The position numbers and the translations under genes are program-made. The notes below the pieces were generated by a model. That model searched no databases, was not told the origin of the DNA, and saw nothing but the letters and a program-made list of their open reading frames with translations. From Tetradesmus obliquus (taxonomy: Eukaryota > Chlorophyta > Chlorophyceae > Sphaeropleales > Scenedesmaceae), in contig CP126198.1 in assembly GCA_030272155.1 (NCBI GenBank), positions 1,736,001 through 1,800,000 on the forward strand: a stretch of 64,000 bases of DNA, given 5' to 3'. Shown one piece after another: positions 1 to 61,493 of the stretch (the stretch's first letter is position 1; the number at the start of each line of letters is the position of its first letter).

Positions 1-2561
1 GCAGGTCCCCTGCTAGCCCAGGCCCTTCGCCTGGCTTCCGGGAGCGGGAAGAGATGGACAGGCACCGGCACCGCAGCCGGCACGGGCCGCCGCCGCCCGA
101 ACATTACATGCGGCACCCGATGGACCGCCCTCCGCCAGAGCACTGGCAGCAGCAGCAGCAGCAGCAGCCTGGCCCCAGGCCGCGCGAGTTTGAACGCGAG
201 AGGGAGTGGCGGCGGGAGAGGGACCGTGAGATCTCTCGGGAGCGTGAGCGGGAGCGGCGGCCCGAGCGGCGAGCAGAGCAGCAGCAGCAGCAGCAGCAGC
301 AGCGGCGGCGGCAGGCACGGCATGCTGGCGAGCAGCGGGGCACCAGCAGTACGCCATCAGAGACCCCCGGCAGCGGCAGGCGGGAGGACGCAGCAGCAGC
401 AGCAGCAGAGCCTGCTCGCAGGGGCAAGTGGGATAAAGCGCCACCTGAGGGTGCTGCTGCTGAGGGCTTGCACTCGGATTGGGCCGCTTTTGTGTCTGCA
501 GACGGCAACGGCAGTGCCAAGCGCCAGCAGCAGCAGCAGCATGACAAGGCTGCTGAGTTAGAGCAGCTGCTGCAGCAGCAGCAGCAGCAGCAGCAGCAGC
601 GCCGGCAAGGGCAGCAGGGCCCTAGGGGCCGCAGCACGACGCCGGAGGAGCAAAGGGGCAGCCAGGTGGGTGGTGTGAGCAGCACTGCGACATGCGCTTG
701 CAAACGCGAGCTAGTGCTATACGCCTGGCGGCAACTGTGGCTGGAGCTGCAGGACAGCAGACTTCATTGATCACCTTTGCGACATGCGCTTGCACACAGC
801 AAGTAGGCGCTACATGCCTAGCGGCGGTTGGCGTAGTGCGAAGTAGACATGCGAGGCAACACGCTGCTGTTATTTCTGGAGCCGATGCATGCGGCGACTG
901 TCACTGCAGACCATAGCGTTGAAGGTGACGCATGCGTTCTGCCGGCTGTGCGACAGTGTTGTGATGACACTGCACTAACAACCTGTCATAACGCTGCCTT
1001 TGCGCTGCATGCACTGTGCTGGCCTGGCGCTCCCGCAGCAGCCGCAGCAGGAGCCGCAGCTGCACGCCCTGAGTGCCGCCGCCACCACCCATCTTTGCAA
1101 CACACTGCATCAATACACTGCCGCACTTTGTTTGCCATTTGTTTGCAGGCTGGGCGTAGCCGCAGCAGCCGCAGCCGGAGCCGCAGCAGCCGCAGCAGGA
1201 GCCGCAGCAGGAGCCGCAGCTACACCTTCTCAGTGCCGCCGCTGCCTTTTGCCTTGCAAGCAACTGCACTAACAAACTGCCGCATTGCTGCATTCTTGCT
1301 GTGTAATGTGTACAGGCCTGGCGCTCCCGCAGCAGCCGCAGCAGCAGCCCCAGCCGCACCATTTCAGTACCGCCGTTACCACGCATTGTTGCAAAACACT
1401 GCATCAACACACTGCCGCACTTTGTGTGCCGTTTGTTTGCAGGCTTGGCGTAGCCGCAGCAGGAGCCGCATCTACTCTCCAGCGCCGCCGCTGCCATTCG
1501 CCTTGCAAGCAACTGCACTAACAAGTTGCCGCAATGCTGCATTCTTGCTGCGTTACGTGTGCAGGCCTGGCGCTCCCGCAGCAGCCGCAGCTACACTCCC
1601 ACAGCTCCTCCGCTGCTGCCCGGGGCACCCCCTCCACCTCCATTGCAACACCCCTCCACTGCTCTGACACACTGTCGCACCAATCTGACGCATGCACTGT
1701 GCAGGCGCTCCCGCAGCAGCCGCAGCAGCAGCCGCAGCCGCACCCCTTCAGTACCTCCACTGCTGCCCGGCTTGCAAGTAACTGCACCAACAATTTGCTG
1801 TGTCGCTGCATGCAATGTGCAGGCCTGGCGCTCGCGCGGCAGCAGCAGGAGCCGCAGCAGGAGCCGCAGCTACACTCCCTCAGCTGCTCCGCTGCCGCAA
1901 GGGGCACCGCCACCACCACCACCAGAAGATGCCAATGCAGCAGCTGCCGCGCCTGCCGGCGGCAGGAAACAACAGCAGCAGCAGCAGCAGCAGCGGGGCT
2001 TGGATGAGCTGCCGTACCTGGCAATGGCTGTGGAGATGTTCCGGCAGGGGCTGCTGCCCCGCGGCTGCAAGTTTGACAGCACACTGGGCATGTACCAGCT
2101 GGACCCCAGGACGGTTCCTCCAGGGGAAAAGCCCGGCGAGTGAGTTTTACATATGGCGTTGACGACTATTGTTGATTCATTGAGTTATTTGCTGGCTTTT
2201 CCTGTCAATCTTGGGTTCGTGCAAGACCTTTTGAGCTGTTGGTTGTGGAAGTGTGCACCTGAGCTGAGCGGCTGGTCAGCGGACTGCAGCTGCAATTTCA
2301 ACAGCACGCTGGGCATGTACCAGCTGGACACCAGGGCAGCAGCAGTGAACCAAGGAGAACAGCAGAATGAGTGCTTGGGATATGTGTACTGGTAGCCGAT
2401 GATCAGTCATTTAATGTGCTTTTCCGGGCTGGTTTGGGACCTTTCAAGTTTGTTTTGAGGACGTGTGTGCCAGCTGAACCGCAGGAGAGCAGGCTGCAGC
2501 GCAAGGTGGGCACCACAATCGCCTGGTGTGTGGCTGGAGCACTGGCAGCTGACTACAACCT

Positions 2562-2598
<37 letters not shown>

Positions 2599-2998
2599 AG
2601 GTGGCACCTTGTGAAGCGTGCGAATGAGGAGCAGGTTGCGCCGCAGCTGCCTGCTCGGGAGCTGGCTGCTGCTGAGGGCAGGCTGGGAGGGGTGGAGGCT
2701 GATGTGCAGGCCAAGGTGAGCAGGCTTTTGCTGCTGCTGCTGCTGCTGCTGCTGTTGTGGTCTTGTTTGTGCGTTTGACGTGTGCTTTGTGTGCTGGCTG
2801 TTGCTGAGGGCAAGCTGTTCATCTTCTGCTTCGGGTGGTGGCAGGCTGGGAGGGGTAGAAACGGATGTGCGGGCCTAGGGAGGTGGGCTGCTGCTGCTGC
2901 TGCTGCTGCTGCTGTGTGCGCGGTTGGTTTGTGTGCTGGCTGCTGCTGAGGGCAGGCTGGGAGGGATGCAGGCGGATGTGCGGGGCAAGGTGACCAGA

Positions 2999-3030
<32 letters not shown>

Positions 3031-3305
3031 ATGTGTGTGGTTGTGTGTGCGGGAGTCGCTCCGTTTGGTGATTGCTGAGGGCAGGCTGGGAGGGGTGGAG
3101 GCTGATGTGCAGGGCAAGGTGAGCAGAAGTTTGCTGCTGCTGCTGCTGTGCTGTTATTCTTTGTACGTTATGACTTGTGCTTTGTGCACTGGCTGCTGCT
3201 GTGCTGTTGTTCGTGTGCAATTGTTTCACTTTGTGTGTTGGCTGCTGCTGAGGGCAGGCTGGGAGGGGTGGAGGCGGATGTGGGGGCCAAGGTGAGTAGA
3301 TTTCT

Positions 3306-3337
<32 letters not shown>

Positions 3338-4488
3338 GCTGTTTATTCTTTGTGCGTTTAACTTGTGCCTTGTGTGCTGGCTGCTGCTGTGCTGTTGTTC
3401 GTGCGCAATTGTTTCGCTTTGTGTGGTAGCTGCTGCTGAGGGCAGGCTGGGAGGGGTGGAGGCTGATGTGGGGCCCAAGGTGAGCAGAAGATTGCTGCTG
3501 CTGTTGCTGCTGTGCTGTTGTTCGTTGTGCGTTTAACTTGTGCTTTGTGTGCTGGCTGCTGCTGTGCTGTTGTTCGTGCGCAATTGTTTCGCTTTGTGTG
3601 GTAGCTGCTGCTGAGGGCAGGCTGGGAGGGGTGGAGGCTGATGTGGGGGCCAAGGTGAGCAGAAGATTGCTGCTGCTGCTGCTGTGCTGTTTATTCTTTG
3701 TGCGTTTAACTTGTGCCTTGTGTGCTGGCTGCTGCTGTGCTGTTGTTCGTGCGCAATTGTTTCGCTTTGTGTGGTAGCTGCTGCTGAGGGCAGGCTGGGA
3801 GGGGTGGAGGCTGATGTGGGGGCCAAGGTGAGCAGAAGATTGCTGCTGCTGTTGCTGCTGTGCTGTTGTTCGTTGTGCGTTTAACTTGTGCTTTGTGTGC
3901 TGGCTGCTGCTGTGCTGTTGTTCGTGCGCAATTGTTTCGCTTTGTGTGTTAGCTGCTGCTGAGGGCAGGCTGGGAGGGGTGGAGGCTGATGTGGGGGCCA
4001 AGGTGAGCAGAAGATTGCTGCTGCTGCTGCTGTGCTGTTGTTCGTTGTGCGTTTAACTTGTGCTTTGTGTGCTGGCTGCTGCTTTGCTGTTGTTTGTGTG
4101 CAACTGCTTCGCTTTGTGTGGTGGCTGCTGCTGAGGGGAAGCTGGGAGGGGTGGAGGCGGATGTGCAGGGCAAGGTGGGCAGGCTTGCGTTCAGTCCTGT
4201 GTTGGCCAACCTATGTCCTTCTGCGATTACAACCCTTGTATGTTGCTCCTGTCCGTGCCCAACTGTAATATTTCTGTGTAGTATGTCTGCCTCACTCTGG
4301 CTGCACCCACTGCAACCCCTGATCAACTGCTGCCGCTGTCCTCCACGCCCTGCACGCCCCACAGCTGGCGCTGCTGTGCCGCGTGGCTGGCCTTGCGTCA
4401 ACAGATGACATGCGCGCCTCACCCCTCAAGTTCATGAAGCGCCTCGTCACACTCGTGCGGCCCTTCCATCACCTCACTGACGGCTTTC

Positions 4489-4522
<34 letters not shown>

Positions 4523-6106
4523 CGCTTTCCACGCCCCAACAGCTGGCACTGCTGTGCCGCGTGGCTGGTCTAGCGTCAACAGACGACATGCGCGCCTCAC
4601 CGCTCGAGTTCATGAAGCGCCTCGTCACACTCGTGCAACCCCACTACTACCCCAAAGACTGCTTAGACTATGAGTTTGTACCCGACTCAGCAGCAGCAGC
4701 GGACACATCAGCAGCAGCAGCGCCAGCTGGCATGCCACACAGCAGTGGGGTGTGGGGAGCTAGCCCCTTCAACCCCAGCCAGCAGCAGCAGCAGCAGCAG
4801 GGGCCGGCGCTGCGGCTGCAGGCAGTGCAGGTGATGATGAGTTGGCAGGGCAAGGCAGCTGCAGCAGCAGCAGCAGATCCCAGGCAACCAGCTGCCAGTG
4901 CGTCCCCAGCAGCAGCAGCAGAGATAGAAGCTGGGGAGGTGCCGCCGCCGCCACCCCCACCACCCCCACCGCCACCTGAGCTTGCTGATACCGCGGCTGG
5001 CTCAGCAGCAGCAGCTGCAGCAGCCGCCGGCGCTGCAGGCGGTACAACTGTACCGCTGCCAGTGATGACTGTACCGCCTTTTGCGCTGTCAGAGCAGGAC
5101 TTAGGGCCTGAGGGCATCCAGCAGCTGCGGCGGCTGCTATGGGCGCGCGCGGCAGCAGCAGCAGCGGAGGTGCCGCTGCCGGCTGTTGCGCAGCAGCTGC
5201 TGGATCCGGAGGATCCTGCTGCAGAGTGGGTGGTGCTGCAGGAAGGGAATGTTACGGAGAGCCGTGGCGGCGTTGGCGTAGCTGTGGCAGTCGTTCCAGG
5301 TGGGCGGGGTTTAAGATGTTGCTGATATAGGGTTTAGGGGGTACAGTATGTGGAGTGGGTGGTGCTGCAGGAAGGAAATGTCACGGAGAGCCGCGGGGGC
5401 GTTGGCATAGCTGTGGCTGTTGTGCCAGGTGCGTGGGGTTTTAGCTGTTGCTAACACAGGGTTCAGAGGATGCAGTGTGTGTGTTGCAGAGCGGGTGGTT
5501 CTGCAGGAAGGGAATGTCACGGAGAGCCGTGGGGGCGTTGGCGTAGCTGTGGCGGTCGTGCCAGGTGGGTGGGGTTTACAATGTTGCTGATCCAGGGTTT
5601 AGGGGATGCTTTGTGAGTTGCGGAGTGGGTGGTGCTGCAGGAAGGGATTATCACGGAGAGCCGTGCACCTGTCGGCATTGCTGGCGGTCGTGCCAGGTGC
5701 GTGATTGAGTTGTTTTGGATCCAGGGTGAAGGGGATGTGGTGTGTGTGCGTGCGTGTTGCGGAGTGGGTGGTGCTGCAGGAAGGCAATGTCACGGAGAGC
5801 CGCGGCGGCGTGGGTATTGCTGTGGCGGCCGTGCCAGGTGGGCTGCAAAGGTCTGAGCTGCATGTTGTGTGTTGTGGGTACTTCCGCGGCTGCGTGAAGG
5901 CCCAGCAGGCGTGCAACGGAAGTGTAGCCAGCAGCAATGCGGCAGAACGGCGTCACTGTGCCTTGTCACATCACACGTTGCGCTGAGCATGCAGATGCCT
6001 TTCTGGTGCTGTAGCGACATCGGACTCGTACATGCGCTCCTGCCAAGCACTTTCGGCTTAACCACATCCTTCTGCCTCTCACTGCGCTTGCATCTGCTGC
6101 TCCTGC

Positions 6107-6154
<48 letters not shown>

Positions 6155-9100
6155 AGCCATGGGTGGCGTGCGCGGCAACCTGGGTGAGCTGCGGGCGCGT
6201 GCTGCTGCTGGCAAGCTGGCCTGGGGTACCAGCATCGGCCGCGCAGCAGACAAGCTGGTGCTGCCGCTGCGCCAGGTGCGGTTTGGGCAGGGTTTGGCTG
6301 CCAGCTGTGCTACTGCTGGCTGTGCATGCTGCTGGTTGGTTGGTGCAAGCATCAGACGGTTTTTGACATAGCATATCTTGCTGGTTAGTGCCTGTTTAGT
6401 TTTTTTTCTGCTTTGTATGAGTGTGCGCGGCAACCTGGGTGAGCTGCGGGCGCGTGCTGCTGCTGGCAAGCTGGCAGGGTTTGGCTGCCAGGTGTACTGC
6501 TGCTGCTGTGCATGTTGCTGGTTGATCAGCGCACATAATCTACACTTTGAAGAACTCAAGTGTCTTGCTGGTCAGCGCCTGTTTGTTTGTCTGTACTGAG
6601 TGGGCGTGCTGCTGCTGGCAAGTTGGCCTGGGGCACCAACATCGGCCGCGCAGCAGACAAACTTGTGCTGCCGCTGCGCCAGGTGCGTGGCGTCGTTCCC
6701 GTTGCTTGCGCTAAACCAGCCAGCAAGACCTGTACTGGCGGGGTGTCAGCAGCATGCCTGCCTTCCTGCTGGCCAGTCGCAAGCGCCTCACCGCACATTC
6801 TGCCCTGCTGCGCTGCACTCTTCCACATGCTGCTGGTTTTTAACCTTGCAGGAGCCCTACACCCAGCAAGACCTGTACTGGCCAGGCGTCAGCAGCATGC
6901 CCGCCTTCCTATTAGCCAGCCGCAAACTACCCCCTCTGCTGCCCCCTCTGCTGCTGCTGCTGCTGCCTCACTGCACATGCTGCCCGGCTGTGCTGCACTC
7001 TTCTTCATGTACCTCAGGAGCCTTACAGCCAGCAAGACCTGTACTGGCCAGGCGTCGGCAACATGCCCGCAATCCTGCTGGCAAGCGCTACCATCTTCTT
7101 TGTTCTGTGCTGAAGCTTTGTCTGTATCTTGAATGCATGCAGGAGCCCTACACCCAGCAAGACCTGTACTGGCCAGGCGTCAGCAGCATGCCGTCATTCC
7201 TAATAGCCAGCCGCAAGCTGACGCCTCTGCTGCCCCCCTGGCAGCCACCACACAGCAAGCCAGCTGCAGCAGCAGCAGAGGCTGCGGTGGCAGCAGCAGC
7301 AGCAGCGCTGCCGGGGCCGTTGGCTGTGCCGGCGCAGGTGCTGCTGCAGCAGCGGTGTGCTGCTGCGCTGGAGCAGCAGGCGCCTGTGGAGCAGGAGCTG
7401 CGGGGGGCTGAGCGGCATGTGATGGGCCTTGCGGCGAGTTTGGAAGCACCACAGCAGGGCTTTGCAAGGTGAGCAATGCGGCTGTGTTTTTGTGGTGGGT
7501 TTCTGCTGGGGTATGGCCAAAGAAAGGGGTGCTGTGCGTCATGTGATGGGCCTTGAGGCGGAGGCTGTTCGTGCTTGAGATTTGTGGGCAGTGTGCTGCT
7601 GCGCTGGAGCAGCAGGGGCCTGTGGAGCAGGAGGTGAGGGGTGCTGAGAAGCATGTGATGGGCTTGGCAGCAGCTTTGGAGGCACCACAGCAGGGCCTGG
7701 CGCAGGGCTTTGCAAGGTAAGCAATGCAGCTGTGTTGCTGTGGTGGGCAACAGGAGAGGAGCAATGGGCAGCTGGGCGTTTTGTTTGTAGGGTTTGTGGG
7801 GTTGGTATAGTGCTGCGATGTATGTTCTAGTGCTTTACAATATGCTTGCAAACTGTGCTTGATGCTGCGCGGCGCTAATGCTGCTGCCCACGTGCGCTGC
7901 GTGCTGCTGTCTTGTGCTGCTCTTGGCACTGCAGCGCTGCATTGGTTGCCCAGCAGCTGAAGCAGCAAGCACCAGCCCAACAGCAGCAGCAGCAGGAGTC
8001 TTCTGCAGCCCCTGGTGGCAGCAGCTCAGCAATCAAGCAGCTGCTGCAGCAGCGTATCAGCCAAGTTGCTGCAGAAGTGGACTTTGGGCCACTGCCAGCA
8101 GCAGCAGCAGCAGCAGCAAGTGCTGCTGCTGCAGGTGGTGCTTCTTCTGGCGCTGCTGGCACCCAGCATGCCTCACCACAGCAGCAGCAGCAGCAGCAGC
8201 AGGCAACGCAGGGTGCGCCAGCAGCAGCAGCAGCAGCAGTGACGCAGTCTGCTGATGTGGACACGCAGGAAGCCGCAGCTGCAGCAGCAGCAGCAGCAGC
8301 AGAGCAGCAACAGCAGCATCAGGCTATGCCGGCGGCTGACGAACCTCCAACACAGCAGCAGCAGCAGCAGCTGGAAGCTGCAGGCACTGCCCCTGCTGAT
8401 GTTGCAATGCAGGAAGCTGACGTGGCAGCAGCAGCAGCAGCGCCATGTGCTGCTGCTGCTGCTGCTGACGAGGCTGCAATGCTGGCTGACCCAGCTGCTG
8501 CTGAGATGCAGCGCACGTTGGGGCTGGCAGCTGCTGTGCTGCGCGTGGTGTCGACGCTGTGGCAGCTGCGCATGGAGGCGGCTGTGCAGGCCAGGTGAGC
8601 GAAAGTGTTTGGCTTGGTAGTAGTATAGCATTGCCCCTCTCCTGGACTGCACAGCAGCCTCCATGTGCAAAGCTGATGAATGGTGTACAGTCCACACCCT
8701 TTCCTTCATTTGCATTCCCTTCCCTTTGCAGCTGGATCCAGTCTCCGTGCACAGCCGGCAGGATCAACCCCATATGCTCAGCCAAGCTGGCCACTGTTGT
8801 TGGGTGTACCATGCTCGCTCACCTTCCCCTTGTTCCTGCCTTTAGTGGTGCCTAACAGACACGGTAGTCACATGCATTCATTTTTGGCTCTTTGTCACAT
8901 CTGGCTGCCTTGATGCCATCTGCTTGCAGGGCTGTCGCGCCCGACAGCATGACATTTGGCCCACCGCGCCGCTGCCCTACCCCTTGCTCATACATACCTG
9001 CTGTCATTTTTCCCACATTTAAAAACCATTTCCTGCTGCCCTTGCATTGCGTTCTTATTTGCAACCACAGGGCTGCCGCGCCGGACAGCGTGACGTCCGG

Positions 9101-10638
9101 CCCCCCGCCGCCGCTGCCCTACCCCTTGCTCACTTACAGTTCGCCTGGCATCTTCCCCGCACGTAATTCATTCCCTGCTGCCCTTGCATTGCGTTCTTTT
9201 TTTGCAACCGCAGGGCTGCTGCGCCGGACAGCGTCACCTTCGGCCCCCCGCCGCCCCTGCCCTACCCCTGTGGTCATTCACATGCGGCGTCCTGCTGCTT
9301 CTCTTGCCCTACCTGACAATCTTTTGCATGCTCACATCCACTCCTGACTGCCTTCCTTTCGTCTTGCAGCAGCACTGCGCCGGACAGCGTGACCTTCGGC
9401 CCGCCGCCGGCGCTGCCCTACCCCTTGCTTGTTCGCATGCTGCTTCCTGCTGCTTCTCTTGCCCTACCTGACAATCATTTGCATGCTCACATCTGCTCCT
9501 GACTGCCTTCCTTTCGTCTTGCAGGAGCACTGCGCCGGACAGCGTGACGTTCGGCCCCCCGCCGCCGCTGCCCTACCCCTTGCTCACTCACATGTTTTGC
9601 TGGCAGAGTACCACCACAAATGTGTTCCCTGCTGCCACTGTGTGACATCTTCCCTGAATTTTGCAGGGCGTCCGCGCCCGACAGCGTCACCTTCGGCCCG
9701 CCGCCGCCGCTGCCCTACCCCGCAGCCCTCAACGCAGCGCTGGTGCACCACTGCATGGGCCTCTCTGCCGGCAGGGGCAGCAGGGCCAGCCTCAAGCTGA
9801 AGGAGCTGCTGCTGGAGCTGCTGCCAGTGTCGGCAGAGCAGCAGCGGCTGGCTGGTGGCGGGGCCTTGGGGGTACGGAAGCTGCTGGTGCCCCAGCAGCA
9901 GCAGCAGCAGCAGAGGGGGCAGGTGCAAGGCAAGTCCCAGCAGCAGCAGCAGCAGCACAAGGCGGCGGCAGCAGCGGCGCACAGGGCGCAGCAGCCGGCA
10001 GAGGCTGCAAAGCAGCAGAAAGGGCAGCTGGCAGGCAGCAAGCGGCCCGCGCCAGCAGCAGCAGGGGCTGCTGCTGCTGCTGCTGCTGCTGCTTCGGGCA
10101 GCGGCGCTGGGCCGCCGGCTAAGATACGCAAGCAGCAGCAGCAGCAGCATGGCCAGCAGCAGCGGCTGCCAGGCCAGAAGGCTGCTCCTGCTGCTGCTGG
10201 CGCTGATGCAAAGCCTGCGGCAGCAGCAGCAGCAGCAGCAGCGCCTGCTGCTGCTGGTGTGCCAGATTCTCTGGGGGCAGGCGGCTTGAAAGTGCCAAAG
10301 GCGTACCATGACGCTGCTGCCGCTGCTGCTGCACATGCGGGCGCTGGGCCGGCCCTGTTAGATCAGGTTACGCTGCATCAGCTGCGCAACTGGCAGCATG
10401 ACAAGGCGGTTGCATGCAAGGCAGCTGGGCTTCGGGAGTGGCGGCTGCTGCTGTCTGATTTGATACAGGAGCAGATGGAGCAGTTGATACAACAGCTTGA
10501 ACAGGAGGAGGGCGCGCATTGGTTCATCCAACCCGTGAACACGAACCAGCTGCCAGATTATGCGAAGGAGGTCGCTTACCCCATGTGCTTGGACTGGATC
10601 AAGCAGGCGCTGCACAACGGGCAGTACAAGCTGGAGCC

Positions 10639-10680
<42 letters not shown>

Positions 10681-10912
10681 GCCGCCGCTGCGGCTGCACG
10701 GCTGGCAGAGCCTCTACGCGTTTGCGCACGATCTGCAGCTGATTGTGAGCAATGCCCGGCAGTACAACGGGGGCAAGCCGGACAATCGCGTGGTGCTGGA
10801 TGCTGCTGCTGCGCTGCAGAGCAAGGCAGTGATGGCGTGGAGCAGGGTGCAGGCGAACATCAGCAGCAAGCTGAAGCAGCGGCTGGAGGCGCACCGGCAG
10901 CAGCAGCAGTAG
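1..10912 (+). CDS. RS-rich protein with C-terminal bromodomain (5' end outside window)
   Basis: The first exon is open from base 3, so the true start lies left of the window. My exons: 1-665, 1823-2139, 2601-2715, 4543-5299, 6157-6275, 7143-7468, 7935-8594, 9667-10912. All junction phases agree, giving 1,400 codons and TAG. The N-terminus is rich in Arg-Ser and Arg-Glu, with further RS repeats in exon 2, typical of nuclear RNA-processing proteins. Exons 4 to 8 carry many Gln, Ala and Pro runs. Around window residues 1270-1385 there is a bromodomain-like module: a ZA-loop stretch PVNTNQLPDY, then YPMCLDWI, then F..DLQLIVSNARQYN with the asparagine expected to bind acetyl-lysine. A poly-Gln run (10640-10679) is inserted between its helices. 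The inferred role is a chromatin reader linked to RNA processing. The bromodomain is seen; the overall family is not recognised. The introns hold about 30 decoy exon fragments. Confidence 0.8.
1012..1822 (+). repeat. Decoy array: six copies of RS exon start
   Basis: The intron between exons 1 and 2 of the bromodomain gene holds six partial copies of the start of exon 2. Each is an acceptor GCAG followed by a TGGCGCTCCCGCAGCAGCCG-like run and a proline-rich stretch. They begin near 1018, 1147, 1315, 1442, 1564 and 1703, and the functional copy is at 1823. Because they encode RS repeats they look like extra exons. However, several run into stops, and only the last copy joins in phase to the downstream exon. 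Confidence 0.8.
2280..2345 (+). repeat. Decoy copy of exon 2 end
   Basis: This is a partial copy of the stretch encoding KFDSTLGMYQLD from 2066-2105, placed in the following intron. It keeps 'CAGCACGCTGGGCATGTACC' with few changes and then diverges. Confidence 0.75.
2716..4180 (+). repeat. Decoy array: nine copies of exon 3 end plus donor
   Basis: The segment GAGGGCAGGCTGGGAGGGGT and the donor after GCCAAG recur nine times downstream of the real exon (real copy at 2677). Copies start near 2840, 2951, 3080, 3253, 3441, 3616, 3789, 3964 and 4136. The later spacing is nearly constant at 172-175 bp. Each unit also carries a short CTG run and a TTGTTCGTGCGCAATTGTTT-type spacer. This is a tandem satellite made from an exon end plus its intron start. 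Confidence 0.9.
4360..4465 (+). repeat. Decoy copy of exon 4 start
   Basis: The copy begins CAGCTGGCGCTGCTGTGCCG and matches the first ~95 nt of exon 4 (4543 onward), including the stretch encoding STDDMRASPL and the sequence up to LVTLV. It lies one unit upstream of the real acceptor. Confidence 0.85.
5344..5845 (+). repeat. Decoy array: four copies of exon 4 end plus donor
   Basis: Four copies of the last ~75 nt of exon 4 (encoding EWVVLQEGNVTESRG...), each followed by a GTG-type donor, lie in the next intron. They start near 5353, 5487, 5623 and 5762 at ~135 bp period. Confidence 0.9.
6108..6156 (+). repeat. (CTG)15 tract abutting a 3' splice site
   Basis: An uninterrupted CTG run reads directly into CTGCAG, the acceptor of exon 5 (6157). 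There is no separate polypyrimidine tract. Confidence 0.85.
6418..7085 (+). repeat. Decoy copies of exon 5 (two) and of exon 6 start (three)
   Basis: Pieces of exon 5 recur at 6420-6474 (start of the exon fused to later intron sequence) and 6600-6684 (end of the exon plus donor). Copies of the exon 6 start (encoding YTQQDLYWPG) recur near 6711, 6853 and 7020 ahead of the real exon at 7143. Thus donor-side copies of the upstream exon and acceptor-side copies of the downstream exon sit in one intron. Confidence 0.85.
7530..7720 (+). repeat. Decoy copy of exon 6 end plus donor
   Basis: The copy repeats the stretch encoding CAAALEQQ and ...HVMGLA, ending TTTGCAAG followed by a GTAAGC donor (real donor is GTGAGC at 7469). 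A shorter fragment of the same exon is seen at 7536-7562. Confidence 0.8.
8925..9610 (+). repeat. Decoy array: five copies of last-exon start
   Basis: Five copies of acceptor plus GCGCCGGACAGCGTGACSTT-like sequence (encoding APDSVTFGPPPPLPYP) lie near 8929, 9071, 9213, 9369 and 9525; the real exon starts at 9667. Period is about 140-157 bp. Exonic parts are very similar, while the intronic linkers (pyrimidine-rich) vary more. Confidence 0.9.
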
Positions 10913-12099
10913 CTGTTGATGCTGTGCTGTCAGTGGGCTGTGCTGCTGCTCACCTTTTGACGCGTTCAGCGAGTATTGAGCGCTTGATGAGCTAGCTGTT
11001 GTGCATTAGTAAAAATTCCTTGCCCTTTTGTGGCTTATCTTCTTTGGGGGCTGCCATCAGCCCGTGCCCCCTCTCGGGCATCAGAAGCAGGCAACATTGC
11101 TGCCGCAGCAACGCATTGGCTGCACAGCCACATATGTGCAGCTGTGCATGACCAGGGTCCTTCGGGATCCTGGCTTTGTCCAGATTTGTCACTTTACATG
11201 TGTTCTTGCCCACTTGGCAGCATCAGGCTTGCAGGCAGCATTGCTGCAGTCTGCTTTTGCGGACTGTGCTTTTGCAAACTTCCTGAGTGCAGTCTCTACA
11301 TAGGCAAGTTGGTGGATCGTGTCAGTGAAGGCTGATTGGAACACCACAGTTGTAACTTGCACAATGCAGCACGCCCATCAACGCGAACGCAGCCAGGTGT
11401 GTACACGCACATCCTACACGGCTGCAGCCAGCTGGCTGTGCACTGGGAGATTGAAAAGCAAGCCAAGCACCTGATTGTGCGTGCAGGCCGTGCAGCTCTC
11501 AAACAACAGCCACCACATCATCATGTTACCCATCAAGCCATAGCAACAACGCCATCAGACCCGCGCCCCAATGGAGCGGCAACAGAAAAGAGCACTACAA
11601 CAGCCACCACAATACAAGTCGTGCCGTCGGCGCCAGCTGCTGACCTGCAAAGGCGTTATTCCAAAAGTAGGCGGTCTAGACAGATCTGCCCTCACACAGT
11701 GCTGCTTCCATGTACTTTAAATGCAGCAAAGGTGCTTTCACTGGGCACCAGCAAACCCGCCTGCCCCAGAACACAGCCCGCCTGCTAGCTGGGCAACAGC
11801 CGCCTTTGCTGAAAGACTGGAGCACCAAAATAGTGCAGGGACACCGCAGCACCCTTATGCAGAGCACCAAAGCAGTATGCCGTGGTATACCAGCCAGGCC
11901 CATTGATTAACAAACCCCACAGCTTGTCCGAACAGCAGTAATCCCCCGCAGGCCGGCGGTACTGCGAACTTGCAGGGTGTGAAACACCTGCCAGATGCCA
12001 GCCGCATTTACGCAGTCGCTCTAGAACAGCAGCCGCACAAATGCAACTTTAATAACAACGACGGTAACAACTGTAACAGCGCCTTCAATAACAACAACC
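10913..12099. other. 3' flank of the bromodomain gene; no further gene seen
   Basis: This is the convergent gap between the bromodomain gene and the lactone oxidase gene. It holds the likely 3' UTR of the former, with a TGTAA motif at 11351. The short open frames have no recognisable domain, and the sequence becomes A/C-rich toward the repeats at 12100. Confidence 0.6.
11351..11355 (+). terminator. TGTAA polyadenylation motif, bromodomain gene
   Basis: TGTAA is the usual green-algal polyadenylation motif. This one lies ~440 nt after the stop codon at 10912. Confidence 0.45.
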
Positions 12100-12739
12100 G
12101 AAGTGACAATCAGCCTGGCTGCATGACATTGCGCATCTAGCGGTACGTATAAAGTGGCCCGCACTGCTCCATCGACCTCGCATGCTGCACCTTACAAACA
12201 CAGCTCTCCGCCCCAGCCTTAAACCCTTCAGCACCGCAGCACTTGTCCAGATCCACACCCTGCCAGGTCCACCTGTCAGGCGCTAAGTCAGCAAACTTGC
12301 CGGTGGGGTCCAGCTGCTTTCATCAGAACAACAGCAAACTTCAGATAACAACAAAAGCTGGGCCTGGCTGCGTTTTGGCACCAAAGAATCTTAGCGGTAC
12401 GTATAGAAAGGCGCCGGCCCACATTGCTCCATCGATCTTGCATGCTGCACCTTGCAAGAACAGCCCTCCGCCCCAGCCTTAAACCCTTCAGCACCGCAAC
12501 ACTTGTCCAGATCCACACCCTGCCAGGTCCACCTGTCAGGTGCTGAGTCGGCAAACTTGCCGGTGGGGTCCAGCTGCTTTCATCATAACAACAATAGCAA
12601 CTTCAATAACAATAAAAGCTGAACCTGGCTGCGTTTTGGCACCACAGAATCTTAGCGGTACGTGTAGAAAGGCGCCGGCCCACACTGCTCCATTGACCTC
12701 GCATGCTGCACCTTACAGGCACAGCCCTCCGCCCCAGCC
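12100..12739 (-). repeat. ~260-bp tandem array made of the lactone oxidase 3' end
   Basis: Units 12479-12739 and 12219-12478, plus a partial unit at 12100-12218, are near-identical. Each carries the coding end (encoding DPTGKFADSAP and WTWQGVDLDKCCGAEG on the minus strand), a TAA, and trailing sequence. The CDS ends in the first unit on the minus strand (stop at 12654-12652), so the others would be 3' UTR or alternative 3' ends. Confidence 0.9.
12192..12196 (-). terminator. TGTAA motif, lactone oxidase gene
   Basis: TGTAA on the minus strand ~455 nt after the stop, in the last, incomplete unit of the 3' array. The same motif is in frame inside the coding end (12713-12717). Confidence 0.35.
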
Positions 12740-12959
12740 TTAAACCCTTCAGCACCGCAGCACTTGTCCAAATCCACACCCTGCCAGGTCCACCTGTCAG
12801 GGGCTGAGTCAGCAAATTTGCCGGTTGGGTCAAGCTGCTTTACGGCGCAGCCAAAGTGGCACCAGTTGTCGCCAAACATTGCGTCGCCGTGCCAGCAGCC
12901 GGGGTCTGGCCAGCCAGCCTTGCCCCAGTGAAGGCGCGGAGGGCCCCTGCGGACAACAG

Positions 12960-14530: not shown

Positions 14531-14584
<54 letters not shown>

Positions 14585-16597: not shown

Positions 16598-16643
<46 letters not shown>

Positions 16644-16732
16644 TACAGGCACAGCTAAGGGCACCTCCGGGACAACGCGGAAGTGCACGCGGGCCAGAAT
16701 ACCAAGCTTTCCTATGGACACGCGGAACGCCT

Positions 16733-16804
<72 letters not shown>

Positions 16805-22489: not shown

Positions 22490-22571
<82 letters not shown>

Positions 22572-23283: not shown

Positions 23284-23326
<43 letters not shown>

Positions 23327-23392: not shown

Positions 23393-23425
<33 letters not shown>

Positions 23426-45786: not shown

Positions 45787-45948
45787 TTAGGAGACTGCAG
45801 TCACACCAGGATTGCTGGTGGTGCTGGGAGTGGCACTGCTACTGGCTGCACCACCTTCTAACACCACCACTTCACCCCCTGCTGCTGTTGCTGCTTCTGC
45901 TGCTGCTGGTCCAGCAGCAGCATTCCCTTCTGCTGCAGCTGCTAGTGG

Positions 45949-46007
<59 letters not shown>

Positions 46008-46970: not shown

Positions 46971-47001
<31 letters not shown>

Positions 47002-47831
47002 GGCGGCTGGGCTGCACAGCTGTGCCACCTCTAAGCTTGCCAGCGGCTCCTGGCCCTGGGGCGGCAAGCACAGCAGACAGCAGTTAAACACTGAAAGCGT
47101 CTCAACGTCTTAAAGTGTCTAAAGCGTTATCATTGTGGACTAAAGAAGGGCCACCTCTAAGCTTGCCAGCGGCTCCTGGCCCTGGGGCAGCAAGCACAGC
47201 AAACAGCAAACACAGCCAACACAAAACACGTGTATCATTCCTCTAGTAATTGGAAGCATCCAGCAAGGGCTTTGCAGCATGTGTATGTATGTGGCTGACT
47301 CAAGCAGCGCTGATTTGACATACTCTTGCTGGCAGCAGTTACACAGGCGGCTGCGTCAGTAAATGCTGCAGCATGTGCAGCATGATGCTGTAGTGCGGCA
47401 AGAGTCAAACAGAGAGAAAGAGGGAGTGTTGCCGCAGCCCCCTCACCAGCGCCTTGGCCACAAAGTGCAGCGTATTGGGGCAAAACAAGACACAGAGAGA
47501 GACCAAGATAAACAAAATACGTAGAAAAAAATGCTGCCGCAGCCCCCTCACCTGCGCCTTTGCAAGGAAGTGCAGCATAATGGGGCAAAACGGGACACAG
47601 AGAGAGCCACAGAAACCAAGAATTGAAAAGAATGCTGCCGCAGCCCCCTCACCAGCGCCTTGGCTACAAGTGCAGCATAATGACAGAAAGTGACACGCAG
47701 AAAGAGAGCGAGAAAAATAAGGATAAAAAAAATATAACAGTGCTGCCGCAGCCCCCTCACCAGCGCCTTGGCCACAAAGTGCAGCATGGGGCCCAGCCAG
47801 TGCTTGCCGCTGTAGCGGTACTTGCGGCCCT

Positions 47832-47879
<48 letters not shown>

Positions 47880-48945
47880 GCGGCGGCAGCAGCAGCAGCT
47901 TCAGCAGAGACGCCAGTTTTGGTGTTTGCGAGAGCGACATTCATGCTGGGATGGCCCCAATCACAACCAGTCAAGAATGACACAGTGCACTGCGGATTGC
48001 AACAGCTCAGAACAATGTCTCAGCACATGGGCTGTCAGGCAACATTGCAGCTGGACTGCTGGTAACACAGCTTCCATCACATACTCATGCACTTTTCAAA
48101 CCCACGTCCAGCATCAAACCCAATTGACACAGCCAAAAAGCGTATCCAAAGCACTTGCAAGCCCGCCTCACCCGCGCGTTGACCTGCAGCACCGGCACCT
48201 CACATCAACACGCCCCAACAGGTGACCCAGCAACCAGCTGCTACACCAACTGACAAACCCAAAAGCCTACCCCTTACTGTGACAACACCAACTGACTCAC
48301 CCACGCATTGACCTGAAGCACCGGCAGCTGAAACTGAGTGCAAAACTGGAACCACCAATCAGCTTCTACACCAACTGACCAGCTGACACATCACTCCTAG
48401 ATCATTTCTAACCCGCCTCACCCGCGCGTTGACCTGCAGCACCGGCAGCGCGTGCAGGCCGTGGCTCATGAGCTGCATCAGGCTCATGTCGCTGTAGCCC
48501 ACGCTCACAAAGCGCACCTGCAGCAGCGAGCAAAATAAGAAACGACATCTGTCATTGGTGATGACATCATTCATGATGAAGAAAGCTTTTGGCAAAGGGT
48601 TGGCAAAGGGTTTGGGGATGATATGCTTCTGCAACTTGCAATGCTGAGGCATGAGGGGCACGCCAGCTGCTGCTGAACCCTCTCCAAACCAGAGAGAGTG
48701 CCAGCTGGTAAGCGCCGGGTGTCTTCCCTTGGAAGAGCTACACGAAGGCATACTGTGTACGATCAGCGTACCGCTGCGCATCATCAAAAGTTGCAAAGTG
48801 TTACATGTTCATTTGCTGTGGCTGTAACAATGTAACATGTTATTTCTGCGTCATTCGAAAGAGCTGCTGCTGCTGCCAGGGTGGTGCAGCTCACAGTGTC
48901 AGGAAAGAATGCTGGCAGGCACTCATACACTGGCTTCATGGCACT

Positions 48946-48979
<34 letters not shown>

Positions 48980-50063
48980 CAGCAGCAGGGCAGTAAAGGT
49001 CAACATGCAGATGCTTGGTGTTGCATGGCATTAGGCTACTGGTAACTGGCTTGCAAGCGAGCGACGTGGTTTGAAAACTTAGTTTTGTCTTTCATGCTCA
49101 CATCAACACAGGTCATGGGGTTCACTAGGTGTGTGCGTCATACAGCATCCAAACATTGTGGACATATTTTTTTGCTTGGCTGCAGCTGAAACCCAAAGCA
49201 TGACAAGCGCAGTGGCCGCTATGCACAGCACACTACTCCTTCGCCCATGCCGGGCCGACTTACTTGGAATGTGGACATGTAGCCAAATGGAACAGCACCA
49301 CCAGTGTAGGGCTGCTGCTGCTGCTGTTGCTGGTGCTGCCTGCCACGCTGTTGCTGCTGCTGCTGGCTTTGTTGCTTCCTGTTCCCCCTAGCAAGTCCTG
49401 TAGCCTGCAATACATAGATGTCAAACGTAACAGCAACAAGCGACAGTCTGAGCAGACAAGTGGACACAGATGTGCGCCACTTGAACCAGTGTGTACCCTG
49501 GCCATGTATGGGTGCACAGTGCCTGCCAGTAGCCTAACAAGGTAACACCCCATGCAACACATGTGTCAGCACTAGGAAGGTGCAGCCACATGTCAGCACA
49601 TACAGCGCTGCGTTTGCAGGTGCTGCCCTTCACCTTTCTTAATAACATTGGTCAGCTCATTTCTGTTGACAAGCATTCTGCAGCAAATAACTCACTGCTT
49701 GCCGGTCACTCGGATAGCCGTGTTGTTGGATGGAAAGCGCTGTGTGCTGCTGGCAGCAGCGCCTGCAGCATCGCTGTTGGCATCAGGCTGCGCCAACTCA
49801 GCTGCTGCTGCAGGTTCAACTGCCTGCTGGTCCGTAGTACTGGCTGCTCGCACTTTTCCTGATGTTGCGGCTACTGTCGCTGCTGTAGCTACTGCTGCTT
49901 CATCTGCGAGTGCTGCTGAAGCATCACAGCTTCCTGTAGTTGCTTCACACACACCAGCAGGGCCTAGTTCGTTTGTTTGGCTATGCACAGACGCCTCACA
50001 AAGCAGCAGCAGGAGCAGAAGTCGGCATGCCAGCAACAGCTGCTTCGCCTTTGGCGGGGGCAT
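45787..50063 (-). CDS. Thioredoxin-fold membrane protein, 5'-adenylylsulfate reductase-like (APRL) type
   Basis: Exons: 50063-49696, 49404-49264, 48943-48895, 48517-48422, 47829-47761, 47055-46750, 46047-45787; 430 codons in frame. A clear signal peptide ([20 protein letters not shown]) is followed by an Ala/Ser-rich linker. A thioredoxin-like domain runs from ~157: TLVVLFHLATCPHS (Cys166), YECLPAFF, the cis-Pro loop HALPVLQVN (Pro211) and KYRYSGKHW. A Gln/Ser-rich insert is followed by one membrane segment (AAFFWLSVAFLACRALWWL, ~332-351) and an Ala-rich tail (GCA repeats at 45952-46001). The order and the CPxS site match plant APRL proteins, which are endomembrane proteins of unclear redox function. 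The second active-site cysteine is Ser169, so it cannot act as a dithiol reductase. The family call is from memory of the motif order. Confidence 0.68.
46200..46690 (-). repeat. Decoy copies of exon 6 end plus donor
   Basis: The stretch encoding ...QQHAAFFWLNVAFL with CCTG|GTGAGT recurs clearly at 46560-46490. Shorter traces of GCCTTCCTGGT with donors lie near 46670 and 46345. Confidence 0.75.
47145..47190 (-). repeat. Decoy copy of exon 6 start
   Basis: CCCCAG plus GGCCAGGAGCCGCTGGCAAG copies the start of exon 6 (47055), followed directly by unrelated intron. Confidence 0.92.
47435..47670 (-). repeat. Three decoy copies of exon 5 end plus donor
   Basis: The stretch encoding LHFVAKAL with donor GTGAGGGGGC recurs near 47667, 47571 and 47466 at ~100 bp, each separated by an AAAA/GAGAGA-type linker. 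Confidence 0.9.
47831..47878 (-). repeat. (CTG)15 tract abutting exon 5 acceptor
   Basis: The sense-strand CTG run leads directly into CTGCAG|GGCCGC, the acceptor of APR-like exon 5. Confidence 0.88.
48160..48312 (-). repeat. Two decoy copies of exon 4 end plus donor
   Basis: The stretch encoding PVLQVNAR is repeated at ~48312-48294 and ~48200-48172 with GTGAG donors. The real exon ends at 48422. Confidence 0.85.
48944..48990 (-). repeat. (CTG)n tract abutting exon 3 acceptor
   Basis: An interrupted CTG run of about 14 units ends in CTGCAG|TGCC, the acceptor of the 49-nt exon 3 (48943). Confidence 0.85.
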
Positions 50064-58466: not shown

Positions 58467-59778
58467 CTAGTTGCCGGCATTGGGCAGCATTGCAGTGCTG
58501 CTGGCTTCGTTCCTGATGGACTGCAGCTGCTGCAGCATCAGCTGCTGCTGCTGCTGGCTGGATGGGCCTGGAACTGTGCATGCCTGACCAAAAAGCAAGC
58601 CGCTTTGCAGCGACATCTGCTGCTGCTGCTGGTGCTGCAGCTGCTGCTGCTCGAGCTGCTGCTGCTCCCTGTACGCGCCCAGCAGAGTGGCCGGCGCTGA
58701 GCCTTGGCGCCCCAGCTGCTGCTGCTGCTGCATCATAAACAACTGCTGTTGCTGCTGCTGCTGCTGCTGCTGCATGCCCATCATCATCATCAGCTGCTGC
58801 TGCTGCTGCTGCTGCTGGTGACCCTGGGATGCTCCCGGCACACCCCACCCAGCAGCACTCCCTGCTGCCGTGACCAGGCCAAAGCTCATGTTGCTGCTGC
58901 TGGTGCAGCTGCTGTTGGAGTTGACTCGCACAGTTCCTGACGGATGCTCTAACCCCGATGCTGCCGCCACAACACTCCCAGAACCCCGAGACCCCACCGC
59001 TGCCAGCGGCAGCACCGAAGCAGTCGGCGTGGCGGGCGGCCCCGCTGCTGCTGCTGCTGCTGTGCTGCCGGCTGCAGCCGCGGCGGCTGCCGCCTCAGCC
59101 TCGGCTGCAGCCGCCGCTGCTGCTGCAACTGCTGCAGCAGCAACTCCCGTTGCGCCTGTTGGCGCTGCGCTGCCCTGAATTTCGTTTGGTGTGAGCGCTG
59201 CATGGAACAGCGTCCTGAGCTCACTGCCATTTAAATAGTCCAGATCTTCTGTGCTGCAGTTTTGCAGCTCTAGCTGCACCTGCTGCACCAGCCACTGCAG
59301 CCGGCTCGCTGCTCCGCTGGACTGCCTGCGCACAAGACCGTCACCTGTTGCAAACTGCTGATGCTCGTTTTGGGCCGCTGCAGCGGCGGCTGCATTGGAT
59401 GCTGCTGCTGCAGCAGCTGCATTGACTGCACCAATTGTTGCGCCTGACACACTGCGCTGCTGCTGCTGCTGTTCAGCGTTGCTGTTATTCATGCTTGCAA
59501 GGCATGCAGACTCCATGCGGAGGTTACTCAGGGTGTTATAATAGTCAGCAATTGTAGCAGCTGCCCCAGCAGCTGCACCCGTCGCACTGCTGCCTGCTGC
59601 AGCAGATGCAGCACACGCAGCTGCTGCAAAAGCTCCGCCGTCGTAGCCTGCCGCAGCATTCACAAAGCTCCCCATCTGCACATCTAATGGTGGCGGCGGC
59701 GGCAGCAGCACAGCCCCTGCCAGGCTAGGCTGCACTGCTAATGCTGCACCATAGAGATCTGAAGCCCCACTTGCCGCA

Positions 59779-59813
<35 letters not shown>

Positions 59814-61493
59814 GCCAGGTGTGGCCGGCGGCCGCTGCTGCTGCTGCTGCTGCTGACTCATCAGCAGGCCGTCATCTTCCAGCTCCTGCTGCAGCGCAGC
59901 AATGAGCTCCGCCTCTGTCATTGGCGCATCACACAATGCACAGTCAGCAGCAGCAGCAGATGCGAGCAGCGATGCATCAGCGGCGCCGCAGCACGCTAGG
60001 TCACTGTAGCTTGGGAAGCGCAGCAGCGAGGCTTGGTGGTGGTGCACAGCCAGGCCCGGCTCCGCTGCTGTTGCTGCTGCTGCTGTTGCTGCTGCTGCTG
60101 TTGCTGTTGCTGCTGCCGCTGCTGTGGAGCTGATAGACAGGGAGGCTTGCAGGAGGCCTCCTGCAGGAGGTGCTGTTACCTCTGCGCCGGTTGCAGTGCT
60201 GAGCGTCTGCTGCTGCTGCTGCTGCTGCCCGCTGCCAGATCCCGTGCTTGTGCTGGACTCCCCACACTGCACGATCAGTGTGGTGGATGGCGTCGCTGCT
60301 GCTGCTGCTGCTGCATGCAGCAGGGGTAGCTGTGCGCTGCGGGAGCGAGTGGCCATGCCTTCTTGCTGGATGCTGTTACCCCACTGGCTGTTTATTTCCG
60401 GCAGCAGCTCTGAAGCCACGTCAGCAGCAGCAGCAGCAGCATAGCCGGGCTCCTCCTTGATGGCAACTGCTGCTGTTGCACCTGCTCCTGCTGCTGCGTC
60501 CTTGTTGTCTGCTTCAGCGAATGCAGCTTTCACGGCGTCTGCTGCAGCCTCTGCTGAGCTTGCGTGGGTGATCGGGGAGATGCTGCGTGCTGCGTCATGC
60601 GAGGTGCAGCCTTTCTTCAGCAGCTGTGCACGCGTGCCGCTGCGGCGCTTGGCCAGGCGGGCGCGGCAGCTCCTGCAAGGTGAATGATGCAACAGGAAGA
60701 AGCGGCAGCAGGCAGAGCAGCAGGGTTTGAGAGTGGGTTGCGGCGCTCTGCCAGGCGTGCGCGGCAGTTCCTGCAATAACGCAGTGGTGGGCGATGGATG
60801 CATCAGACAGCAGCAGCAGGAGCAGCAGCAGCAGGGATAGCAGACGGGCTTGAGTGTGGTGTGGTGCGGTGGTCGTTGCGCAGATGATGGCCTGCGCGCA
60901 GAATGTAGGGCAGTTGCTGTGGTAACCTCTGGACGGATCAACATGTTTTGCTTGGTTGCTGCTGCATGCGCTGCAAGCTTAAGCAGCGTGGCTGTAGCAC
61001 CACCGGCCATGCATGTCATCGCCTGCTCACCGTTTGGTGTCATCTGAAGGGAGAGGCCGCCGCAGTATGGAGGGTTGGCAAGCGCAGCAGCAGCAGCAGC
61101 AGGCAGCAGCAGCAGTCAGTGCAAAATCTTTGCAGCGTCAGTGTCAACGGCTAAGATGCACGTCTTGCTGAGCAGCAGCAGGGGGTGCTTGCTGAAGTGC
61201 AGGGTTGCTTGCAGTCATACTTGTGCAATATCCGGTTGATCTCAGGAGCAGTGCTAGATGCACAGATTGTCCTGATGCTTCTGGATGCAAGCAATTGCTG
61301 AACCGGATTTGAGGCAGCTCACTCACCGAACTTTGTCAGGCACTCAAACTTGCCGCATTGCTGGCAGAAGCGGTACACTGTGGGGTCGTCCGCTGACAGC
61401 TGCACTGCTGGCGCCTGCATGTGAGCCGTGCACGCCTTCTTCTTCAGGCAGTAACTCTTGGTCAGCTGCGTGTTGCAGTGCAGCACCTGCAGT

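Follow-up and report, generated by a model that had tools for sequence, protein, structure and literature searches.

How does a splicing machinery recognize the real end of an exon when near-twins of that end lie beside it in the intron? The question is raised by a 64,000-nucleotide stretch of the Tetradesmus obliquus genome (assembly GCA_030272155.1, contig CP126198.1, positions 1,736,001 to 1,800,000; hereafter the window). Many introns of this alga contain partial, slightly diverged copies of the adjoining exon's end, usable-looking splice site included. The copies matter because real exon ends must be distinguished from them. An earlier note on the window had described such copies within introns on both strands; their presence was confirmed, and the interpretation given there was partly supported.

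The sample comprised 264 kb from five contigs of the 104.7 Mb genome. Most counts were obtained with an unsupervised, predicted gene model (m1b) that includes some copies as exons; our own gene finder repeatedly mistook copies for exons. The counts of exon versus intron similarity and of intron-side z>3 used earlier gene models, from which the splice-site thresholds of the repeat-end test were also taken. Segments shorter than 40 nt, low-complexity exon ends and pairs of fewer than 12 codons were dropped before counting.

Local repeats were almost exclusively direct, with 393 direct and 3 inverted pairs across the five regions (141 and 0 in the window). This strand asymmetry, together with shuffled controls, speaks against a chance origin. 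Repeat offsets in the five regions ranged from ∼90 nt upward with a mode at 120–140 nt, spacing within arrays was regular (e.g. 173, 188, 175, 173, 175 and 127–147), and only a few pairs in each region lay more than 3 kb apart. Copies occurred in 78 of 287 modelled introns over the five regions and in 27 of 71 in the window. The share of exonic nucleotides with an intronic copy of at least 80% identity was 11.9, 2.2, 1.5, 6.1 and 9.8% by region; the phenomenon is therefore not a property of one neighbourhood, as the earlier note had it, since all five sampled regions are affected at varying density. Local direct repeats accounted for 29.6% of intron nucleotides and, depending on the region, 0–13% of intergenic nucleotides. 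Introns with copies had a median length of 462 nt versus 218 nt for those without, although longer introns may merely offer copies more room.

Within introns of conservative gene models, 58 copies were counted in the window; with the arrays that the gene finder called exons added, the earlier figure of about a hundred is of the right order. Copies had been reported in all eight multi-exon genes; seven genes were modelled here, and each carries at least one. The genes other than that for granule-bound starch synthase (GBSS), with their copies, are as follows (positions within the window).

108..10912, + strand: gene 1, 17-exon m1b model with a C-terminal bromodomain (Pfam Bromodomain, E 2.9e-16 on the last part)
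2654..4186, + strand: array (family D8) in which a short segment of exon, EGRLGGVEADV..AK|GTGAGC, occurs ten times at a spacing of 111–188
5217..5878, + strand: array repeating the 3' end of the exon that ends at 5299 (EWVVLQEGNVTESRGG..VP|GTG), family D16, TRF; first copy with 7 synonymous and 1 nonsynonymous changes
6704..7112, + strand: 5' end of the exon starting at 7143, copied three times upstream, family D19
8923..9579, + strand: 5' end of the exon starting at 9667, copied five times upstream
12085..12841, − strand: three tandem copies of a ∼260 nt unit, each with a modelled exon (KLDPTGKFADSAPDRWTWQG..), family D12
13769..19986, − strand: gene 2, 10-exon model, no Pfam match; intronic copies near 14324, 14769, 15172, 15884, 16057, 17845, 18091 and 18867
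21695..26784, − strand: gene 3, DnaJ protein (Pfam DnaJ_C 1.1e-20, DnaJ_CXXCXGXG 4.7e-10); intronic copies near 23703, 24231, 24845, 24974, 25239, 25635, 25788, 25945 and 26242
29898..34927, + strand: gene 4, no Pfam match for the tested piece; holds the next two arrays
30721..31833, + strand: six copies of a PDRPPAQPSAPGLTVPLL-coding segment, family D7; five modelled as exons (30934–31776) of 54, 54, 72, 54 and 54 nt
32423..33605, + strand: an exon 3' end (..EAKALAGSTPFKLQ|GT) present in nine copies, spacing 127–147, families D9/D15
33732..33794, + strand: 5' end of the exon starting at 33867, copied once upstream with 6 differences, at third codon positions only
41956..50063, − strand: gene 6, 12-exon model, no Pfam match for the tested pieces
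42855..42997, − strand: two upstream copies of the exon 5' end at 42764–42806; unit 91 nt, whole unit ∼97% alike
43276..43590, − strand: two downstream copies (43506–43590 and 43276–43360) of the exon 3' end at 43742–43820; codon differences all synonymous (3 and 4)
44066..44282, − strand: 5'-end copy located upstream of its exon at 43742–43943 (LAISYLLYPAIAALLAY..); 13 synonymous and 1 nonsynonymous changes in 39 codons
44508..44749, − strand: exon 3' end ..FPKLIR|GTAAGC (44759–45001), copied once downstream
46479..46566, − strand: exon 3' end at 46739–46826, copied once downstream
47150..47208, − strand: upstream copy of the exon 5' end at 47024–47082
58467..61952, − strand: gene 7, SBP-domain protein, 3 exons (Pfam SBP 1.6e-12)
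60739..60770, − strand: old upstream copy (28/32 nt) of the 5' end of the SBP gene exon starting at 60672

The five array exons at 30934–31776 all have lengths that are multiples of 3 and are thus possibly real coding repeats. The SBP copy was missed by blastn; a sensitive alignment scored 24 versus 16 for the best of 200 shuffles. Guesses at identity, namely an FAD-linked oxidase for gene 2, a TPLATE-complex muniscin-like protein for gene 4 and a thioredoxin-like membrane protein for gene 6, found no Pfam support (for genes 4 and 6, in the pieces tested).

Which version of an exon end is real can be judged where solved homologues of the protein exist, as for GBSS in the window, three of whose ten introns contain a copy:

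35442..40000, + strand: GBSS gene, 11 exons, 610 aa
37957..38017, + strand: exon 7 3' end copied downstream, with the donor GT intact and a 1-nt indel
39153..39205, + strand: upstream copy of the 5' end of exon 10, 98% over 53 nt, AG kept
39686..39733, + strand: upstream copy of the 5' end of exon 11, AG kept, 1-nt indel

With its copies left out, GBSS aligns to 3vue_A over residues 80–585 (E 6.9e-178). Methylmalonate-semialdehyde dehydrogenase (MMSDH), encoded outside the window, likewise matched a solved homologue with the copies skipped, and no counterparts of the copies were present in the solved homologues of either protein. For these two conserved enzymes the coding path does skip the copies, as had been claimed, and from the protein homology we infer that they would be skipped in vivo. 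The eight codon counts given earlier were reproduced exactly for GBSS (610 aa plus stop, 611 codons) and not for the others; the SBP gene model, for example, has 818 aa versus 822 codons. It had also been stated that 5'-end copies always lie upstream and 3'-end copies always downstream of the real exon. All three GBSS copies, and those of one MMSDH intron, follow this order, which the gene models do not establish in general. Copies of 63 acceptors and 73 donors were found solely outside the exon's own modelled intron, presumably because the models took those copies for exons. Any tandem duplication across a junction produces the upstream/downstream rule automatically, and the rule is no evidence of design.

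Among 138 re-aligned intronic copies, 126 were partial, mostly half-exons extending from the splice junction inward, and 12 covered a whole exon; arrays modelled as exons (e.g. 30721–31833) fall outside this count and may be exceptions. The splice dinucleotide was kept in 46 of 57 acceptor copies and 41 of 50 donor copies that extend to the junction. Where it was kept, the copy scored at least as high as the real site in 20 of 46 acceptors and 20 of 41 donors; in agreement with the earlier description, many copy sites match the genuine site in strength. On average, copy sites were slightly weaker (donors, p 0.003; acceptors, p 0.07). Similarity between real end and copy tends to stop at the splice site and not at random places. 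A model-free test of repeat ends was informative only in part: 184 of 268 non-overlapping pairs shared a splice site at one end, compared with 65% of random single intervals holding a site under a looser, single-copy criterion; a sharp peak appeared for the donor alone, 3–9 nt inside the right end. Read-through of the spacer found no support, as offsets showed no excess of multiples of 3 (judged by eye). Recursive splicing at AG|GT junctions was also set aside, exon-start GT not being clearly enriched (14/47 with versus 48/240 without a copy).

The exon parts of the copies stay far more alike than the intron parts. Intron sides were alike in 44% of the 18 youngest nearest-copy pairs (third-position divergence <0.1) and in 23% of 44, 22% of 23, 19% of 21 and 40% of 5 in the successive later bins, versus 1% of random pairs. 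About half of the pairs lacked significant intron-side similarity at any exon identity (z>3 fraction 0.46–0.61 across five exon-identity bins). Depending on the divergence bin, 48–70% of codon changes between real end and copy were synonymous; since the rise of this share with divergence is partly a filter effect, neutral copies were simulated under the same filter and gave 29–50%. Broken copies also showed a synonymous excess (170 synonymous:157 nonsynonymous), those with an unalignable junction were nearly neutral (116:172), and the synonymous share was equal in copies with the splice site lost (53:34) or kept (286:178). The two youngest bins contained 1 stop codon in 18 pairs and 7 in 44, close to the 0.07 and 0.19 per pair given by simulated neutral copies; like the copies with an unalignable junction, this favours neutrality. 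Frameshifting indels occurred in 35 of 151 copies, and 47 of 55 indels were not multiples of 3, which opposes the copies as current coding exons, though codon changes lean synonymous. The lost intron sides and the synonymous excess are not what plain neutral decay of a duplicated whole unit would leave, and they count against it. Differences were unclustered (180 pairs, mean p 0.54, 5% with p<0.05), so no mosaic patches of partial gene conversion were found; whole-tract overwriting of copies by the real exon may have occurred. Tentatively, the likeness of the exon parts and their mainly synonymous differences suggest that copies arose from real exon alleles, or were overwritten by them, after these had diverged under coding constraint.

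We consider it probable that the copies are recurrent small tandem duplications spanning exon-intron junctions, mostly non-functional intronic relics that the spliceosome passes over. The repeats are direct, local and composed of intron and exon sequence, the intron part being unrecognisable in about half of the pairs. Small duplications, with a unit mostly of ∼100–270 nt, would recur across the junctions of intron-bearing genes. When an acceptor is duplicated, the real exon would gain a half-exon copy and acceptor on its upstream side; when a donor is, the half-exon copy and its donor would come to lie on the downstream side. Splicing from the outermost donor to the outermost acceptor would preserve the coding path, and junction duplications would therefore be tolerated, those within exons mostly not. 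Some would amplify into arrays of up to ten copies, lengthening the intron. As the half-exon copies have no partner splice site, exon definition (whole-exon recognition) would let the spliceosome pass over them; most copies, being half-exons, would be disfavoured by exon definition anyway. Within this explanation we infer the duplication mechanism, the copies as a cause of intron length, and their skipping in vivo together with its cause.

A different view, conceivable though we would not expect it to prove right, takes the copies not for passive relics but for a local, living library of exon ends in continuing sequence exchange with the real one: introns would grow by junction duplication and store functional exon variants, whole-exon recognition picking the real end. 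Such exchange would account for alike exon parts, lost intron parts and mostly synonymous differences even in broken copies. Copies kept by function, as half-exon decoys to which splicing factors bind and which control how fast splicing runs, how far introns are retained or how abundant transcripts are, seem unlikely. Retained splice dinucleotides with scores not far under the real ones, far more alike exon parts and fewer nonsynonymous changes than neutral would suit them, but most indels ignore the reading frame, the synonymous share is alike with and without a splice site, copy donors are weaker on average, and copy number and position differ between genes and regions; for regulatory decoy exons the frame, synonymy and splice-site results may be read as mixed hints. 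Quite unlikely, too, are tandem exon duplications that serve or once served as alternative exons (mutually exclusive or included), with partial copies as their remains. Some arrays do have whole modelled exons of lengths divisible by 3 (the five at 30934–31776), and amino-acid sequence is conserved in many copies (e.g. 13:1 at 44066–44282), yet all but 12 of the 138 intronic copies fall short of a whole exon, which is not the pattern of whole-exon duplication, and the GBSS and MMSDH homologues have no counterpart.

Synonymous-rich differences are what two diverged haplotypes would give, and haplotypes or read errors could have been stacked into false tandem copies during assembly. We find such an artefact highly doubtful: third-position divergence is broad (0 to 0.52 in 111 pairs) and not one haplotype distance, arrays reach ten copies, and the assembly has 17 contigs for 104.7 Mb. 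Intron birth through a duplicated exonic AGGT segment (the Rogers model) is disfavoured as very improbable; 14 of 47 exons with an upstream copy start with GT, giving AG|GT at the junction, but so do 48 of 240 without one, and the introns are not duplicated exonic segments between two AGGT sites, as the copies are flanked on either side by further sequence of the longer introns that contain them, and intron sequence, where it can still be made out, forms part of the copied unit. Mobile elements (introners or other) carrying or duplicating exon ends are likewise disfavoured and scarcely credible. Direct repeats around unrelated spacers would, as an argument alone, resemble long target-site duplications, but similarity tends to end at the splice site, and neither the two regions searched genome-wide nor the repeat pairs of the five regions revealed near-identical introns of a dispersed family. 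The search with 44066..44282 matched solely that copy and its real exon, and the second region matched itself and one weak exon-like sequence; for neither was a dispersed or paralogous source found, although lack of a match does not prove rarity.

The decoy exon in detained introns, such as that of OGT, is a regulated exon. Our copies are like it in being intronic exon-like sequence with splice sites (PMC12017769), and unlike it in being candidate decoys at most. In the potato RdRp gene, the 3' side of an intron and the 5' side of an exon were duplicated in tandem (Ma, Lan and Niu 2016, PMC4974935), and there as here the unit spans the acceptor and takes in part of the intron and the downstream exon. 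The event described there was a single one that created a new intron, whereas here scores of copies occur at donors and acceptors, often several per intron, and are apparently skipped. Our literature searches returned no report of such copy density, the potato case being the single comparable duplication, and the density is unusual, as claimed at the outset. For animal tandem exon duplications, ∼2% (human), 0.08% (fly) and 0.06% (worm) of exonic nucleotides are given as having a copy of at least 80% identity (PMC9013439); the 6.3% found here comes from a different method and homemade gene models. In both cases unannotated exon-like sequence is duplicated into adjoining introns, but that account treats duplicated exons, many tied to alternative splicing. 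The Drosophila intron gain described in PMC2891723, by tandem duplication of coding sequence holding a proto-splice site, is similar in that a genic tandem duplication leaves exon-derived sequence within an intron; there exonic AGGY segments turn into intron, whereas here existing introns gain half-exons.

If true, our reading makes this genome a natural experiment on splice-site choice, with one or more half-exon rivals beside the real end in 78 of the 287 sampled introns, the motif strengths often being alike; by extrapolation, if the five regions are typical, thousands of such introns would exist genome-wide. Gene annotators should be warned that copies taken as exons would inflate protein models in such genomes. 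The copies also suggest a concrete route of intron lengthening. For T. obliquus, a 108 Mb genome of 57% GC with a mean intron of 462 bp was published, compared with 230–302 bp for the four other algae in the same table, which gives no cause for the length and does not mention exon-end copies (PMC5966456). The assembly used here has 104.7 Mb and ∼57% GC, and its modelled introns average 338 bp: 505 with copies and 275 without.

The sample comprised the window and four 50-kb stretches of four other contigs (264 kb in total), drawn from a genome of 104.7 Mb in 17 contigs. Gene models were produced with a purpose-written gene finder trained on the same 264 kb, and all intron and exon counts depend on model quality. 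Pfam matches among the window genes were to DnaJ, SBP and bromodomain; no Pfam match was obtained for three other window genes, searched as models or pieces. Local repeats were identified using blastn with simple repeats masked, retaining pairs ≤3 kb apart. Direct pairs numbered 141 in the window and 20, 13, 106 and 113 in the other stretches, and inverted pairs 0, and 1, 0, 2 and 0, respectively. The earlier note had described copies of exon ends inside flanking introns, and these are real. Across the five regions, offsets of direct repeats were rare below 90 nt, with a mode at 120–140 nt and a second at 240–260 nt; nearest offsets had a median of 164 nt. Repeats covered 29.6% of intron nucleotides and from 0 to 13% of intergenic nucleotides, depending on the region. 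The interval 50064–58466, with no modelled gene and a single pair in the repeat search, agrees with a concentration of repeats in genes.

Within the gene-model set m1b (the output of the unsupervised gene finder, in which some copies were included as exons), a copy lay within the site's own intron for 47 acceptors and 51 donors (of 287 each). At least one copy was present in 78/287 introns, distributed as 27/71 in the window and 8/54, 7/50, 19/54 and 17/58 elsewhere. The copies had been presented as a phenomenon of one whole neighbourhood; they are indeed present there, but are not confined to it, occurring in all five regions. A further 63 acceptors and 73 donors had copies only elsewhere than in their own intron, which we attribute to models taking copies for exons. 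Median intron length was 462 nt with copies versus 218 nt without, although longer introns also offer more room. Among 138 re-aligned copies, 126 were partial and 12 covered the exon, and this anatomy of the exon-end copies is well supported. Five modelled exons at 30934–31776 (54, 54, 72, 54 and 54 nt) encode a near-identical proline-rich peptide; their lengths are multiples of 3, and they may therefore be a real coding repeat instead of skipped copies.

The coding path had been proposed to skip every copy. Protein homology supports this for two genes only, those encoding granule-bound starch synthase (GBSS) and methylmalonate-semialdehyde dehydrogenase (MMSDH; in one of the four other stretches, C15). 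The features concerned are:

35442–40000 (+), GBSS gene
37957–38017, GBSS copy left out of the alignment to 3vue
39153–39205, GBSS copy left out of the alignment to 3vue
39686–39733, GBSS copy left out of the alignment to 3vue
C15:1014922–1021628, MMSDH gene; five or more of its introns contain exon-end copies

With its copies omitted, GBSS gave one continuous alignment (residues 80–585) to 3vue, a granule-bound starch synthase of solved structure. The MMSDH model aligned to 9izu in two pieces, query 31–320 ending at chain residue 312 and query 403–577 resuming at residue 313; the 82 residues between them are copies mistaken for exons by the gene finder. Once these are skipped, an intron of 1,211 nt is left, in which the 3′ end of the upstream exon is copied three times; after these copies, the 5′ end of the downstream exon is matched four times, twice directly after GCAG. 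As a control, exon 7 compared with 100 shuffled introns gave a mean score of 11.2 and a maximum of 15. In one MMSDH intron, a degenerate copy sits between two well-kept copies. The GBSS copy at 39153–39205 encodes Q where the real exon has H; the residue aligned there is Q in 3vue and Y in 6gnf, both solved enzymes, so this copy may retain an older residue, at this single site.

Among copies reaching the junction, the splice dinucleotide was retained in 46/57 acceptor and 41/50 donor copies. Mean scores of these were 5.33 versus 6.16 at the real acceptors (p 0.07) and 6.38 versus 6.97 at the real donors (p 0.003); copy sites are thus slightly weaker on average. Motif strength alone fails to distinguish the real site, the copy scoring at least as high in 20/46 acceptors and 20/41 donors. 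Exon definition would be the simplest route for the spliceosome to bypass the copies, because most lack the whole exon's partner site.

The regular spacing of the arrays and the recognisable intron sides of some pairs point to tandem duplication of units that would have spanned the exon–intron junction. Intron sides were alike in 44% of 18 pairs at third-position divergence <0.1, in 23% of 44, 22% of 23 and 19% of 21 pairs in the 0.1–0.2, 0.2–0.3 and 0.3–0.4 bins, and in 40% of 5 pairs in the last bin, against 1% of random pairs. Similarity was ∼0.85 on the exon side and dropped sharply at the junction, to ∼0.5–0.6 past the splice-site consensus, declining to ∼0.35 (control ∼0.25–0.35 away from the consensus). 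On the donor side, similarity tends to extend 3–9 nt past the junction. In about half of the pairs, significant intron-side similarity was absent, whatever the exon identity.

Codon changes between the real exon and its nearest copy (111 pairs) were 48, 55, 60, 69 and 70% synonymous by rising third-position divergence bin, compared with 29–50% in simulated neutral copies passed through the same filter; incorrect frames, and genuine coding repeats counted as “copies”, introduce noise in both directions. By simulation, the observed share would fit an apparent dN/dS of ∼0.2–0.4 in the copies. The two youngest bins had stop codons (1 in 18 pairs, 7 in 44) at nearly the frequency simulated for neutral copies (0.07 and 0.19 per pair); older pairs (3 in 23, then 0 in 26) had fewer than simulated. 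In 88 families with three or more members, changes confined to a single copy were synonymous in 129 cases, nonsynonymous in 160 and stops in 5; changes confined to the modelled real exon were synonymous in 61 cases and nonsynonymous in 32 (neutral expectation, 31% synonymous). Intact copies (206:116) showed the synonymous excess, as did broken ones (170:157), and it was equal with the splice site retained (286:178) or lost (53:34). Indels in copies were frame-blind (47/55 not multiples of 3). The excess therefore looks like history rather than present use. Copies with an unalignable junction were near neutral (116:172). Already diverged alleles of the real exons seem either to give rise to the copies or to overwrite them. 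Patchy gene conversion is disfavoured, since no clustering of differences was found within copies.

Exon-end copies at this density were not reported in the titles and abstract openings of the open-licence papers that the literature searches listed. Under our homemade models, an intronic copy at ≥80% identity matched 6.3% of exonic nucleotides in the 264 kb, whereas the figures given for animal tandem exon duplications in an exonerate-based study, by differing methods, are ∼2% of exonic nucleotides in human, 0.08% in fly and 0.06% in worm (PMC9013439). The closest single event is one described in potato (PMC4974935). A published table lists T. obliquus at 108 Mb and 57% GC with a mean intron of 462 bp, compared with 230–302 bp in four other algae (PMC5966456); junction duplication may be among the reasons for this length.

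Lastly, CAG/GCT trinucleotide runs are abundant across the window (e.g. 6094–6154, 14531–14584, 16733–16802 and 22491–22570), both in modelled exons (as poly-Q or poly-A) and elsewhere. The window also has 28- and 32-nt minisatellites and a (GCAA) run ∼20 units long (17204–17311, 54454–54674 and 57389–57470), which differ from the exon-end copies.
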